This document shows, piece by piece, positions 8,908 through 13,467 of a stretch of 64,000 nucleotides of DNA; within the stretch, counting starts at the first letter, position 1; every line of letters begins with the position of its first letter. Location: positions 498,387 through 562,386 of the forward strand of contig NZ_JACSQJ010000001.1 of assembly GCF_014836665.1 (NCBI RefSeq). Direction: 5' to 3'. Under the pieces are notes generated by a model that saw only the letters and a program-made list of their open reading frames with translations, ran no database searches and was not told the DNA's origin. Made by a program: the position numbers and the translations under genes. This DNA is from Luteimonas colneyensis (GTDB taxonomy: Bacteria > Pseudomonadota > Gammaproteobacteria > Xanthomonadales > Xanthomonadaceae).

Positions 8908-9070
8908 GGCGGACGATCCGGTGGCGGGGGCGCGAAGCGTAGCAAACAGCGGCGGCGGACCAGTGCGCGGCCCGCGCGGTCCGCGCCGGCGTGACTAAAG
9001 GCGGGTGAAGCCCGACGCCACGGCCGCTAGAGTCGACGTTTGCAGCGCCCCGTCCCGGCGCGAAGGAACC

Positions 9071-10666
9071 ATGATGTCGAAGCGTTGCGTGATGGCGTTG
9101 CTCCTTGCCGCCAGCGGCCTGGCGATGGCCAACGAACCGGTGGACCTGGACATGGTCAGCCGGATCCGCCAGGAGGCCTTCCACAACTCCCAGGTCATGG
9201 CGACCTTCAGCCACCTCACCGAAACCATCGGCCCGCGCCTGAGCAACTCGCCGCAGATGGCCGAAGCCAACGCCTGGACGCGCGGCAAGTTCAGCGAGTG
9301 GGGCCTGTCCAACGTCCATGACGACGCCTTCGACGACTTCGGCCGCGGCTGGGAGTTCAGCGCCGCCAGCGTCGAGATGCTCGGCGGGCGCGTGCAGCCG
9401 CTGCACGCCCTGCCCAAGGCCTGGACGCCCGGCACCGACGGTCCCGTCGAGGGCGAGCTGGTGAAGGTCGACATCAAGACCCTGGCCGACATCGAGAAGT
9501 ACCGCGGCAAGCTCGGCGGCAAGGTCCTGCTGCTGGGCGATGCGCGCGAGTACAAGCGCGGCACCGAGCCGGATTCGCACCGCCACGACGCCACCTCGCT
9601 GGAAGGGCTGCAGGAATTCACCGTGCCGAAGACCGCCGCCGCCGACCGCGCGAAGCGGGTCAAGGAGTACGGCGAGCGCCAGCAGCTCAGCCGCGCCGTC
9701 AACGAATTCTTCGCCGCGGAAGGCGCGCTGGCCGCGATCAGCATCAGCAGCTGGGACAACGGCATCATCCGCGTCGCCGGCGGTGGCCCGCGCAAGGCCG
9801 GTGAGCCGGTCGGGATCCCCGAACTGGCCATGATCGCCGAGCACTTCAATCCGCTGGTGCGCGCGCTCGACGATGGCCAGACGGTGCGCCTGCGCGTCAA
9901 CGTCGCCGCGCGCTTCACCGACGAAGCCAACCAGCCCGGCCACAACACCATCGCCGAGATCCCCGGCCGCGGCGGCAAGGCCGGCGAGATCGTGATGATC
10001 GGCGCGCACCTCGACTCCTGGCACACCGGCACCGGCGCCGCCGACAACGCCGCCGGCGTGGCGGTGATGATGGAGGCCATGCGCATCCTCAAGGCCGTCG
10101 GCGCACGCCCCGAGCGCACCATCCGCGTCGCGCTGTGGAGCGGCGAGGAACAGGGCCTGGTCGGCTCGCAGGACTACGTGGCGCGCAACTTCGCCCACTA
10201 CCCCGAGCCCACCGACCCGGCGCAGAAGGCGCTGCCGGCGTCGCTGCGCGAGCCGACCGGCCCGCTGCGCAAGCTGCGCGACTACGAGCGCTTCTCGGTC
10301 TACTTCAACATGGACAACGGCTCGGGCCGCTTCCGCGGCATCTACGCCCAGGAAAACCTGGCGGCGATGCCGATCTTCGAGGCCTGGCTCAAGCCCTTCC
10401 ACGACGTCGGTGCCACCACGGTCGCCACCCGCAACACCGGCAGCACCGACCACATCGCCTTCGACCGCGTCGGCCTGCCCGGCTTCCAGTTCATCCAGGA
10501 CCGGCTGGACTACTTCACCAACGTCCACCACACCCACCTGGACACCTGGGACCACGCCGAGCCCGAGGACCTCAAGCAGGCCGCGGCCATCGTGGCCTCG
10601 TTCGCCTACCACGCGGCGATGCGCGACGAGCGGATGCCGCGCAAGCCGCTGCTCGATCCGAAGTAA
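9071..10666 (+). CDS. secreted M28 zinc metallopeptidase with PA domain
   Basis: A 531-residue exported aminopeptidase-like enzyme. It has a short signal peptide (residues 1-20, ending AMA-NE), a region corresponding to the PA insert (about 110-260) and a C-terminal M28 catalytic domain. Zinc-ligand and catalytic motifs are visible: HLDSW with His313 and Asp315, AADNAAG with Asp325, SGEEQG with Glu359/Glu360, GSTDH with Asp460, and HHTHLDTWD near the end. The family removes N-terminal residues from peptides or splits dipeptides outside the cytoplasm. An AAGGAA box precedes tandem ATGs at 9071 and 9074; the second has better spacing. Followed by a hairpin that probably ends transcription. Confidence 0.92.
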   Translation: MMSKRCVMALLLAASGLAMANEPVDLDMVSRIRQEAFHNSQVMATFSHLTETIGPRLSNSPQMAEANAWTRGKFSEWGLSNVHDDAFDDFGRGWEFSAASVEMLGGRVQPLHALPKAWTPGTDGPVEGELVKVDIKTLADIEKYRGKLGGKVLLLGDAREYKRGTEPDSHRHDATSLEGLQEFTVPKTAAADRAKRVKEYGERQQLSRAVNEFFAAEGALAAISISSWDNGIIRVAGGGPRKAGEPVGIPELAMIAEHFNPLVRALDDGQTVRLRVNVAARFTDEANQPGHNTIAEIPGRGGKAGEIVMIGAHLDSWHTGTGAADNAAGVAVMMEAMRILKAVGARPERTIRVALWSGEEQGLVGSQDYVARNFAHYPEPTDPAQKALPASLREPTGPLRKLRDYERFSVYFNMDNGSGRFRGIYAQENLAAMPIFEAWLKPFHDVGATTVATRNTGSTDHIAFDRVGLPGFQFIQDRLDYFTNVHHTHLDTWDHAEPEDLKQAAAIVASFAYHAAMRDERMPRKPLLDPK

Positions 10667-10711: not shown

Positions 10712-13210
10712 TCAGGCGCCGGCCTGCACCCTGCGCGGCACGCTCAGCGCCGGGATCACCAGGGTGGTGTATTCCTCGTAATGCGCCGAGGGCAGGTCCG
10801 CGAGCGCAAGGCGGTCCATCCGCGGCGCATCGATCGGCAGCTGCGCCGCCTCGTACAGCACCACCTCGTGGTCGGCGGGATACCAGCGCAGCAGCTTGTC
10901 GACCAGGGCCTGCAGACCTTCCGGTTCGGCGTGCAGCCGGGTGCACGAGAGATCTCCGGCCAGCGTCACCTGCCACAGCAGCACCAGCGCGGCGGTGTCC
11001 GGTTCGCGGTCGTGGATCATGAAGTGCGTGGCCTCGAGCGACTGCACGCCGCGCAGTCCCGGGTCCAGGCCGAGGTCGGCGTACAGGCAGGCTTCGGCGG
11101 AGATCCCGGGTTCCATGCGCGCCGGCAGGCCCAGCGCGCGCGTCCTGCGCACCACCGCATGCGGCACGTCGGCGAAGACGCCCGGGTGGCCGTAGAACAC
11201 CGCGCAGACCCGCCGACCGGCCTCGACCGCGGCCATGATCGCGGCCTCGATCTCGCGGTAGGTCTCCCGACGGTCCTTGCCCGGCGCGTAGTGGACGCCG
11301 AGGTTGACGGCGTCGGGCCGGAAGCCGTGGATCATCCCCAGCGCGAACGGATCGACCAGGCAGAACACCACCTCGGCCTCGCGGATCTCCGACAGCGTGC
11401 GCTCGCTGGCGTGGCGCCCGAACTGGATGCCGCTGCCCACCACCACCAGCGATCCGCTGGGCCCCGCCTCCGGCTGCTCCACCCCGCGCGCGCGCACCAC
11501 CCGGTCGCGCCCGCCGTGCTTGGCGCGGTACAGCGCCTGGTCGGCGTTGTGGATGAGCTGTTCGAGCGTGGGTGTGCTGCCGTCGTACTGGCTCACGCCG
11601 GCGCTGAGGTTGAAGCTGAAGGTCTGCCCGAACACGGTGATCGGCTCCATCCGCTCGCGCAGGCGCTGCAGCAGCGCTTCGGCGTCGGCGGCGGTTCCCT
11701 GCAACAGGATCGTGAACTCGTCGCCGCCGCTGCGGCCGGCGATCGCACGGGCCCCGACGATCCCGCTGATCCAGCCACCGAGCGAACGCAGCGCCTCGTC
11801 GCCCGCCGCATGGCCGTAGCGATCGTTGACCTGCTTGAAGAGGTCGATGTCGGCGATGACGGCGGTGAACGGACGGCCCTCCTGGCGCGCGCGCCGGAAG
11901 GCCTCGCCGCCGCGCTTGCGCACCTGCTGGTAGTTGAACAGGCCGGTCAGCCCGTCGCGCTCGGACTGATGGCGGTAGCGGCCGCGCTCGCGCGAACTGT
12001 GCCGCAGCAGCAGGAGCAGCAGCAGCGCGGTGACCATCAGGCCGAACATGCCCATGCCGAGCAGCCACTGCCGGCGCTGGGTGGCGGTGACCTGCAGCGC
12101 GGCCAGCTCCTTTTCGGCTTCGAGCAGCGCGATCTGGTGCTCCTTCAGCTGCGTGTCGAATTCCACCTGGAGATAGGCCAGGCGGCGCTCTCGGGATTCA
12201 CGCTCGGCGACTTCCTGGGCGTCCATCGCCCGACGCAGATGGGTCAGCGCCCCGCCTTCGTCGCCGCGCTGCTCCGCAAGCCTCGCGAGAAGGCGTTCGG
12301 TCTCGGCCACCGCGAGCTCGGTCTTCTGTCCGCGGTAGTACTCCAGCGTTTCGAGCAGCATGGACTCGGCGTGCTCGAGTTCCCGGTCCAGCGAGATGAG
12401 GTTGCCGGCCAGCTCCAGCCGCGCGCTCCAGCTGCCGGCTGCAAAGCCCGTCGCCTCGAATTCGGCCAGCGCCTGGCGCGACCAGTCCAGGGCCTCAAGG
12501 GGGCGGCCCTGGGCCGCGACCATCTTGCCGACGCCGTACTTGGCGTTGGCGACAAAGACGCGGTCGCCGGCGGCCTGGCAGGCGTCCATCTGGCGCCGCC
12601 TCCAGCCCTCGGCTTCGACGTAGTTGCCCGCATGGTCCTCGGCCATCGCGAGGTCGGCAAGCGCCAGGCAGCGCCCGCGCGCATCACCCTCCGCCTGGAC
12701 CGCATCCAGGGCCTGTCGCGCGAGGTCGCGTGCCTTGCCGATCTCACCCACCAGCGTATGCAGGTAGCTGGCGGCTCCGAGCAGGCCGGGGGCGCCTTCC
12801 GGCGCATCGGGCAGGTATTCCAGGCCCTCGCTCAGCCAGCCGAAGGCCCGCGGCCAGTCCTCGACGTTGGCGGCGATGCTGATCGCGGTGGTGTAGGCGC
12901 GCACCCGCAGCGCGGCCGGCATCTCCGCCTGCTGCAGCAGGCGGGAGAAGCCCTGCAGCGCGGCAGGCTCCTTGCCGGCCAGCCCGAGGTTGCGCAGGCG
13001 CACGAACTCGATCCGGGCGCGCTGCTCCGGCGTGAGTTCATCCAGGCGCGAAGCCAGGTCGTCGAGCCTGCGATCGGATTCACGCCAGTGCGTGGAGATC
13101 GCCAGCCGCTCGATCTCCGCGACCTCCGCTTCCAGCCCGTCGTCGGCAAGCACCGGCGCGGCTGCCAGCACCAGCACGAGGACGGCGGCAATGCGGGCCA
13201 GCCGGCACAT
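10712..13210 (-). CDS. TPR sensor - TM - GGDEF - borosin-type peptide alpha-N-methyltransferase fusion
   Basis: An 832-residue protein with an unusual domain order. Residues 1-22 are a signal peptide. Residues 25-335 are TPR-like helical repeats, expected in the periplasm, followed by a coiled coil (340-375) and one membrane helix (383-403). Residues 418-575 form a GGDEF domain with SGGDEF at 494-499; the RxxD inhibitory site is absent. Residues 586-822 form a tetrapyrrole-methylase-fold domain that matches borosin methyltransferases of the SonM/OphMA type: VVVGSGIQ, Tyr641-x6-Arg648-x2-Tyr651, FYGHPGVFA (672-680), MEPGISAEACLYADLG, EATHFM, LLWQ and HEVVLYEAAQLPI. Those enzymes methylate backbone amides of a precursor peptide with SAM. 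The precursor-like gene lies 38 bp upstream. Domain assignments are firm; coupling of c-di-GMP signalling to methylation is inferred. Confidence 0.88.
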   Translation of the reverse strand: MCRLARIAAVLVLVLAAAPVLADDGLEAEVAEIERLAISTHWRESDRRLDDLASRLDELTPEQRARIEFVRLRNLGLAGKEPAALQGFSRLLQQAEMPAALRVRAYTTAISIAANVEDWPRAFGWLSEGLEYLPDAPEGAPGLLGAASYLHTLVGEIGKARDLARQALDAVQAEGDARGRCLALADLAMAEDHAGNYVEAEGWRRRQMDACQAAGDRVFVANAKYGVGKMVAAQGRPLEALDWSRQALAEFEATGFAAGSWSARLELAGNLISLDRELEHAESMLLETLEYYRGQKTELAVAETERLLARLAEQRGDEGGALTHLRRAMDAQEVAERESRERRLAYLQVEFDTQLKEHQIALLEAEKELAALQVTATQRRQWLLGMGMFGLMVTALLLLLLLRHSSRERGRYRHQSERDGLTGLFNYQQVRKRGGEAFRRARQEGRPFTAVIADIDLFKQVNDRYGHAAGDEALRSLGGWISGIVGARAIAGRSGGDEFTILLQGTAADAEALLQRLRERMEPITVFGQTFSFNLSAGVSQYDGSTPTLEQLIHNADQALYRAKHGGRDRVVRARGVEQPEAGPSGSLVVVGSGIQFGRHASERTLSEIREAEVVFCLVDPFALGMIHGFRPDAVNLGVHYAPGKDRRETYREIEAAIMAAVEAGRRVCAVFYGHPGVFADVPHAVVRRTRALGLPARMEPGISAEACLYADLGLDPGLRGVQSLEATHFMIHDREPDTAALVLLWQVTLAGDLSCTRLHAEPEGLQALVDKLLRWYPADHEVVLYEAAQLPIDAPRMDRLALADLPSAHYEEYTTLVIPALSVPRRVQAGA

Positions 13211-13248
13211 GGGCGCGGGGCGTCGGCGGACGGCGGCGAAGACGGCGG

Positions 13249-13467
13249 TCAGTACGCCTTGACGATGTGGTTGGTCGCGAACTGGCCGTCGCTCAGCCCG
13301 GTCAGCTTCTTGATGGACGCGTAGTCCTTCGCCAGCATGGCCTTCTGCTCTTCGTCCGTGAGGCCGGCGCGGCTTACCACGGCGGCGGGGTCCTTCTCGT
13401 ACTCCGCGGCCAGCGCGGCATCACTCGCAAGCTTCCTCATCAGGTCGAGCAGCGTCAGCATCTTCAT
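13249..13467 (-). CDS. SonA-like split-borosin precursor peptide (72 aa)
   Basis: A 72-residue protein resembling precursors of split borosins such as Shewanella SonA. A helical recognition domain (roughly 1-55; motifs EYEKDPAAVV and AGLTDEEQKAML) is followed by a short C-terminal tail, GLSDGQFATNHIVKAY, in the position of the methylated core. No signal peptide is present. The SD-like GGGGA suits the second ATG (13461, 7-base spacing) better than the first (13467), so the product may be 70 residues. The methyltransferase-GGDEF fusion starts 38 bp downstream on the same strand, so the two form an operon. Alternative reading: a small LigA/Nif11-like protein without core function, but the adjacency makes a substrate role likely. 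Confidence 0.82.
   Translation of the reverse strand: MKMLTLLDLMRKLASDAALAAEYEKDPAAVVSRAGLTDEEQKAMLAKDYASIKKLTGLSDGQFATNHIVKAY

Follow-up and report, generated by a model that had tools for sequence, protein, structure and literature searches.

The present work concerns a pair of genes in a 64,000-nucleotide stretch of Luteimonas colneyensis DNA (contig NZ_JACSQJ010000001.1, positions 498,387 to 562,386), called the window below. The larger gene, a single open reading frame on the minus strand (10712..13210, ATG at 13210), encodes an 832-residue fusion protein (P0001) of a sensor, a cyclase domain and a borosin-type peptide N-methyltransferase. It starts with a signal peptide (residues 1-22, VLVLAAAPVLA/DD, 13145..13210, cleavage site placed by eye), which is followed by a predicted periplasmic tetratricopeptide repeat (TPR) sensor (residues ca 24-380, 12071..13141), a transmembrane helix predicted from hydropathy (residues ca 381-402, 12005..12070) with a basic stretch after it, a GGDEF domain (residues 413-572, 11495..11974) recognised by Pfam, NCBIfam and a motif survey, and a borosin alpha-N-methyltransferase (MT) domain (residues 586-824, 10739..11455) identified by PDB search and alignments. 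The Pfam matches are TPR_12 (2.9e-09), GGDEF over residues 418-570 (118.5 bits, cut-off 23.8) and TP_methylase over residues 588-789 (59.8 bits, cut-off 27.8).

The second gene lies upstream on the same strand (13249..13467, starting at ATG 13467 or at an ATG at residue 3), with 38 bp between its end and the start codon of the fusion. It encodes a 72-residue borosin precursor (P0002) with a borosin-binding domain (BBD) at approximately residues 3-58 and, at the C-terminus, the putative core peptide GQFATNHIVKAY (13252..13287, minus strand). In phmmer, the precursor matches the SonA chains of the PDB at 1e-06 to 2.5e-06, and its LigA-type Pfam match (2.3e-05) falls just short of the cut-off. 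Pfam, PDB search, phmmer and hydropathy confirm thus the TPR, membrane helix, GGDEF and borosin MT architecture, and the SonA-like precursor next to it, that had been described in a first-pass annotation of the window.

The superfamily model TP_methylase scores on the MT domain, and one could consequently suspect a tetrapyrrole or diphthine-type methylase with no peptide role. However, in a search of the PDB with residues 586-832, SonM scores 235.7 bits (5e-69) and the fungal enzymes OphMA/dbOphMA and MroMA 122.9-128.8 and 117.9 bits, respectively, while the best precorrin methylase reaches only 24.2 bits. The motifs YGHPGVFA, MEPGISAEACL and HEVVLYEAAQLPI, named in the first-pass annotation, are present, and the borosin catalytic residues are kept. 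For the latter, Tyr641 and Tyr651 stand as annotated, but the alignment places the invariant arginine at Arg647 and not at 648, an error of one position. Over the 196 distinct MT domains of the survey described below, the three columns hold Tyr in 195, Arg in 195 and Tyr in 194 cases, and a BBD precursor is close to 166 of the 187 MT domains that have a receptor. A precorrin/diphthine-type identity is thereby ruled out on the scores, and a role unrelated to peptides is next to impossible; the expected grouping of residues 586-822 with the borosin enzymes holds among solved structures.

The closest characterized system is SonM/SonA of Shewanella oneidensis, a type IV split borosin, with which the window shares the enzyme family, the catalytic residues and the type of precursor. 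Homology to SonM and OphMA extends across the MT domain, the Tyr/Arg/Tyr cluster is in place, and the BBD precursor is separately encoded. The difference is that SonM is free-standing, whereas the window enzyme is the C-terminal domain of a membrane receptor, with the precursor still a separate protein.

As to the receptor part, the GGDEF domain carries an intact GRSGGDEF motif, and the pattern RxGG(D/E)EF is found in 184 of 186 receptor GGDEF domains of the survey. Judging from these motifs, the domain appears built for synthesis of cyclic di-GMP (c-di-GMP). It has no RxxD I-site, which we take, with the pattern from PleD, to be the c-di-GMP feedback site. This pattern occurs in 0 of 46 fused GGDEF domains vs 96 of 140 separate ones. 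We considered that the feedback site was lost as a consequence of fusion, but dropped this idea, because of the 15 separate-gene receptors listed in the sister clade 13 also lack it (one has it, and for one the motif region was not retrievable); the loss probably predates the fusion. An N-terminal hydrophobic segment is present in 163 of the 184 GGDEF receptors having a full TPR match. The AlphaFold model of the TPR domain (alignment A2) has a mean pLDDT of 96.2, and its cysteines Cys181 and Cys211 are kept in 113 of 113 loci. For the full-length protein the mean pLDDT is 79.5 and the pTM 0.46, with parts of the MT at low confidence; in this model a helix of residues 318-417 spans the predicted membrane segment. 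The source genome (3.02 Mb, 13 contigs) contains one MT, one receptor of this TPR family and 18 GGDEF matches, and its sole BBD match is the window precursor. The nearest named relatives are Luteimonas, the MT being 97% identical to that of L. padinae.

Relatives were collected by MT similarity (best 80 of 167 loci) and extended with MT stretches from genomes of the order (159/298), the class (11/370), family f132 (21/59) and the order of G596 (60/247), giving 210 MT domains, of which 196 are distinct. The nearest receptor is a fused TPR-GGDEF protein for 48 of these, a separate TPR-GGDEF protein for 122 and a separate TPR-kinase for 14; four are odd, seven have no receptor, and one is cut off. 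Three gene orders are seen, namely precursor - GGDEF::MT in the fused form, precursor - receptor - MT, and MT - precursor - receptor, and a BBD gene lies upstream of the nearest receptor in 166 of 186 cases. The triad of enzyme, precursor and receptor is thus conserved. Among the odd loci, L065 ends at a contig edge, L070 has another architecture, L183 has TPR and GGDEF in separate frames, and L190 (7200-9377) has an MT and precursor followed by two adjoining TPR frames without output domain. It is important to note that neither a receptor nor a BBD is found within 3.5 kb of six distant MT domains from the class-level set (L085-L090). Only the SonM-like branch of the family therefore has the module, and we dropped the idea that it is a trait of the whole.

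The first-pass annotation had suggested that N-methylation is a regulated output. In this scenario, the TPR domain senses some other envelope cue, the MT is gated by c-di-GMP, GTP or conformation, and the methylated protein is the response. The presence of enzyme and cyclase in one chain, both with intact active-site residues, favours such a mechanism. On the other hand, for 140 of the 196 distinct domains the TPR protein is a separate neighbour within 3.5 kb, usually together with the precursor, so that the enzyme is commonly not part of the receptor at all. This is already the case in the orthologue of the best-studied pair, where a 596-residue TPR/TM/GGDEF frame follows directly after the precursor (L186). 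The SonA match of the precursor of this locus covers all 71 residues (2.4e-38), and the enzyme scores 557.6 bits against SonM, from which resemblance the host is likely Shewanella. TAL repeat proteins that appeared as PDB matches of the SonA-like query were taken as repeat artefacts. The words cyclase and tetratricopeptide have no occurrence in the main text of the SonM study (PMC8429565).

The output domain is also exchangeable. In 12 loci (L055, L067, L082, L083, L084, L174, L178, L181, L194, L195, L196, L198), HisKA and HATPase domains form the C-terminal end of the nearest TPR membrane protein, with receiver domains as well in eight of these loci, and the TPR region of L055, L082 and L083 is directly similar to that of the window (3e-23 to 2e-29). 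That the output can be a histidine kinase also speaks against the regulated-output scenario. L083 has an additional TPR-GGDEF gene on the opposite side of the MT. Two observations at the margins of this set can be added. At L055 (1916-2467, a Natronospira metagenome-assembled genome, MAG), a BBD-like stretch is joined to a receiver domain, by eye, upstream of the TPR hybrid kinase. The alphaproteobacterial MAG of L070 (1374-6768) has an amine oxidase frame that reads without stop into a BBD precursor; a class III cyclase/AAA/TPR protein, a different neighbour of signalling type, and an MT come next.

We now turn to receptors away from the enzyme. Of 40 stretches around further receptors, six had an MT; in the remaining 34, a BBD precursor lies directly upstream of the receptor in 24 and is lacking in ten. 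All 31 BBD hits in the 359 kb of these receptor stretches are within 700 bases of a receptor or an MT. Precursor-receptor pairs thus exist without an adjoining enzyme, which argues against both the regulated-output scenario and an ordinary natural-product cluster. At the same time, the pairs appear to depend on an enzyme elsewhere in the genome. Of the 34 stretches, the precursor is present in 24 of 30 from MT-bearing genomes vs 0 of 4 from genomes without MT (Fisher 0.0045). A precursor search through 40 chosen whole genomes, two of which (G000 and G045) had given rows to the search model, found it in 13 of 13 genomes with MT and receptor, in 3 of the 8 that the initial scoring had as MT only, in 0 of 9 with receptor only and in 0 of 10 without both, i.e. 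only in enzyme-bearing genomes among those examined. The first scoring of the 298 genomes gave 159 with MT and 160 with TPR (151 both, 8 MT only, 9 TPR only, 130 neither). Three of the eight MT-only genomes (G008, G104, G119) show a TPR beside the MT at weaker E-values, and the other five show none. In the nine receptor-only genomes (G043, G085, G100, G115, G120 and G140 of family f9, and G037, G089 and G214), neither MT nor BBD precursor was found, so that some receptors of this TPR family may have other ligands.

A further line of evidence comes from the co-divergence of the partners, measured over 113 loci that each have a single precursor and a single GGDEF receptor (71 separate-gene, 42 fused). 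With GGDEF and MT distances removed, the precursor distances correlate with those of the TPR domain with a partial r of 0.43, a value reached in 0 of 200 label permutations; the corresponding values are -0.04 for GGDEF and 0.17 for MT. In the separate-gene loci the partial r is 0.49 for TPR, 0.13 for GGDEF and -0.01 for MT, and in the fused loci 0.19 (1/200 permutations as high), 0.15 and -0.01, respectively. As TPR and GGDEF sit in one protein, common ancestry is not sufficient to account for the contrast between them, although rate differences may contribute. That the precursor follows the TPR domain above the MT or the GGDEF domain also speaks against methylation as the output.

On this basis, we lean towards the reading that the window holds the one-protein form of a conserved gammaproteobacterial peptide-signalling module, in which the neighbouring periplasmic receptor has the N-methylated peptide as its ligand. 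The precursor would be made in the cytoplasm, and its C-terminal core would be backbone N-methylated by the borosin domain at the inner face of the membrane. After removal of the leader, the mature core would reach the periplasm or the exterior, where the neighbouring receptor would bind it with its predicted periplasmic TPR domain, and the signal would pass via the membrane helix to the output, activating a diguanylate cyclase here and a histidine kinase elsewhere. The methyltransferase would act as a shared modifying enzyme. Among accounts that cover the adjacency, the change of output, the enzyme-free pairs, the dependence on the enzyme and the co-divergence, a peptide signal that acts on the receptor next to it is the simplest.

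This arrangement can be compared with that of the RRNPP receptors Rap and NprR, which are TPR superhelices and, as in Rap-Phr, have a peptide gene beside the receptor gene; the adjoining gene is the shared trait, counted above for the nearest receptors and for the MT-free stretches. The Foldseek and VIA-align matches of the TPR model include Rap/NprR, but other TPR proteins match as well and Rap/NprR are not singled out. RRNPP receptors reside in the cytoplasm, and their output, in the N-terminal part, is of the phosphatase type or binds DNA. The fusion, in contrast, has a predicted signal peptide and a membrane helix, its TPR domain is predicted to be periplasmic, the outputs are GGDEF or kinase, and an N-methyltransferase accompanies the peptide. 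The enzyme-free pairs, the changed outputs on a similar sensor, the precursor-TPR co-divergence and, with the reservation just given, the likeness to Rap/NprR make the modified peptide more likely an input of the receptor than its output. The gating by a cue, GTP or c-di-GMP proposed in the first-pass annotation received no specific support, and we consider methylation as a regulated response unlikely.

Several observations weigh against the ligand reading. The precursor has no evident signal peptide while the receptor is predicted to be periplasmic, and the reading would need a route from the cytoplasm to the latter. No widely recurring export gene, transporter or protease was found among the listed neighbour clusters of 188 loci (the 14 largest of 475 clusters after removal of frames overlapping the three genes, several resembling shadow frames). 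The receptor-only genomes suggest that the TPR domain is able to respond to a different cue, which also favours the regulated-output scenario. Finally, a GNAT acetyltransferase (one member matches Pfam PF13302 at 8.3e-21) is the commonest neighbour, present on the MT strand in 27 of the 188 loci, 21 times upstream and 6 times downstream (e.g. L171:5352-5912). In some branches of the family it may be a second enzyme that modifies the peptide. All 27 loci have separate GGDEF genes and none is fused. This recurrence slightly lowers our confidence in a peptide signal and slightly raises that in an ordinary natural-product cluster, in which the peptide would be an exported effector (antimicrobial, metal-related etc.) and the co-regulated receptor would only tune lifestyle genes.

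The natural-product alternative is also in line with the treatment of SonM-type enzymes in PMC8429565 as enzymes of ribosomally synthesized and post-translationally modified peptide biosynthesis. However, transporters and proteases are not widely recurrent (ABC-ATPase-like frames in 8 and peptidase-like frames in 9 of the 188 loci, labels by eye), and receptor and precursor co-occur away from the enzyme. In addition, the core is conserved within the fused clade rather than diversified. The tail of its 45 precursors is approximately FATNHxIxAY(D/E), with partial exceptions in L028 and L032-L038, and is conserved to a similar degree as the leader; outside the clade the tails differ, often with a short hydrophobic run followed by acidic residues. 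We therefore find the natural-product alternative quite improbable. That backbone N-methylation here belongs to a signalling system is well supported by the genomics; this part of the first-pass annotation stands, with the TPR receptor a standing neighbour even when the genes are separate. For Shewanella, a product has reportedly been described at a later date.

What does the fusion add? In the MT tree, calculated with a quick method, the fused set forms one clade of 49 rows (48 fused and the truncated L043; SH-aLRT 98), nested in a 67-row clade (support 100) whose remaining rows are 15 separate-GGDEF and 3 separate-kinase ones. With 48 distinct fused domains in one clade, we rejected the possibility that the fusion is an artefact of assembly or gene calling, and the arrangement with an upstream precursor is not due to chance, as it recurs at 44 of 47 fused loci (45 precursors in all, the window counted). 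Because the fused set lies within separate-gene rows, the simplest account is a single origin, by joining of the receptor and enzyme genes of a locus with the order precursor - receptor - MT. In the 18 sister-clade separate-gene loci (15 GGDEF, 3 kinase), the receptor frame always ends at most 57 bases from the MT domain, which favours loss of a stop codon between two adjacent genes as the source of the fusion. Such a loss could have been neutral and have added nothing to the module, which is compatible with the peptide-ligand reading and agrees with the one-clade origin. However, 48 distinct domains from several genera and MAGs have retained the fusion, and no re-split between GGDEF and MT is seen in the sample; a neutral fusion is possible, but we are inclined to doubt it. 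Diguanylate cyclases act as dimers. In the peptide-ligand reading, the fusion would keep the signal-modifying enzyme at the receptor, and dimerisation may couple the two. SonM itself is described as forming dimers of heterodimers (PMC8429565).

The fused hosts are Luteimonas, Pseudoxanthomonas, Thermomonas, Dokdonella, Rubrivivax and MAGs. The betaproteobacterial Rubrivivax (L020, L021, L022, L058, with strain IM 151 represented on two contigs, L021 and L058) has the fused form nested inside the gammaproteobacterial clade, which suggests horizontal transfer.

It is important to point out that the fusion as such can hardly be presented as new. Known borosin enzymes had been said in the first-pass annotation to be only free-standing or fused to their precursor, but this is too strong, since the Fig. 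1 legend of PMC11395268 (2024) lists a GGDEF domain among the architectures of its borosin type chart, crediting types V-X to Imani 2022 and Cho 2022. By that legend, a GGDEF-borosin fusion appears to be drawn already, the entry probably being the present fusion or a neighbouring gene, and the main novelty claim is weakened. No mention of the TPR receptor partnership, the kinase forms or the enzyme-free precursor-receptor pairs was found in the literature searched, which lacked the likeliest sources (Imani 2022, Cho 2022, Lee 2024), so that the receptor association may already have been published. Among related cyclases, those of Vibrio share the combination of TPR and GGDEF. According to PMC12282931, the TPR domain of RcbB represses its cyclase, and two periplasmic-TPR cyclases of V. 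parahaemolyticus are cited there. RcbB differs in being predicted cytoplasmic and in having RcbA as partner rather than a borosin enzyme; the words methyltransferase and borosin have no occurrence in the main text of that paper.

A broader proposal, which we put forward tentatively and hold a little less firmly than the reading of the window, is that SonM-type bacterial borosins are mainly alpha-N-methylated peptide signals rather than secondary metabolites. They would be a Gram-negative counterpart of Rap-Phr, with one shared MT, cognate periplasmic TPR receptors and interchangeable outputs (c-di-GMP or phosphorelay), receptor and enzyme having become one protein in Luteimonas and relatives. 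If true, bacteria would make peptide signals by backbone N-methylation, a modification familiar from drugs, where it serves stability and permeability, and a dedicated family of peptide receptors would be added to c-di-GMP networks. With a conserved receptor beside enzyme and precursor, there is a practical and inexpensive handle on function, available already in the Shewanella-type orthologue.

Some loci deviate in gene number. A Dokdonella MAG (L017:679-6762) has two full precursor and fusion units in tandem with different core ends. The idea that every tandem receptor has its own precursor was dropped, as only 10 of 26 extra receptors have a detected one (L017 is counted twice in this number, and L032 is a split TPR frame). 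Separate MT genes stand in tandem at L178, L180 and L194, and two borosin MT domains are found within one 545-residue frame at G078:C52:3877-5442 and G128:C345:2797-4362. In the window itself, a secreted peptidase-like gene (M28-looking, by eye) at 9005-10666 on the plus strand converges on the fusion, and related opposite-strand frames occur in nine loci.

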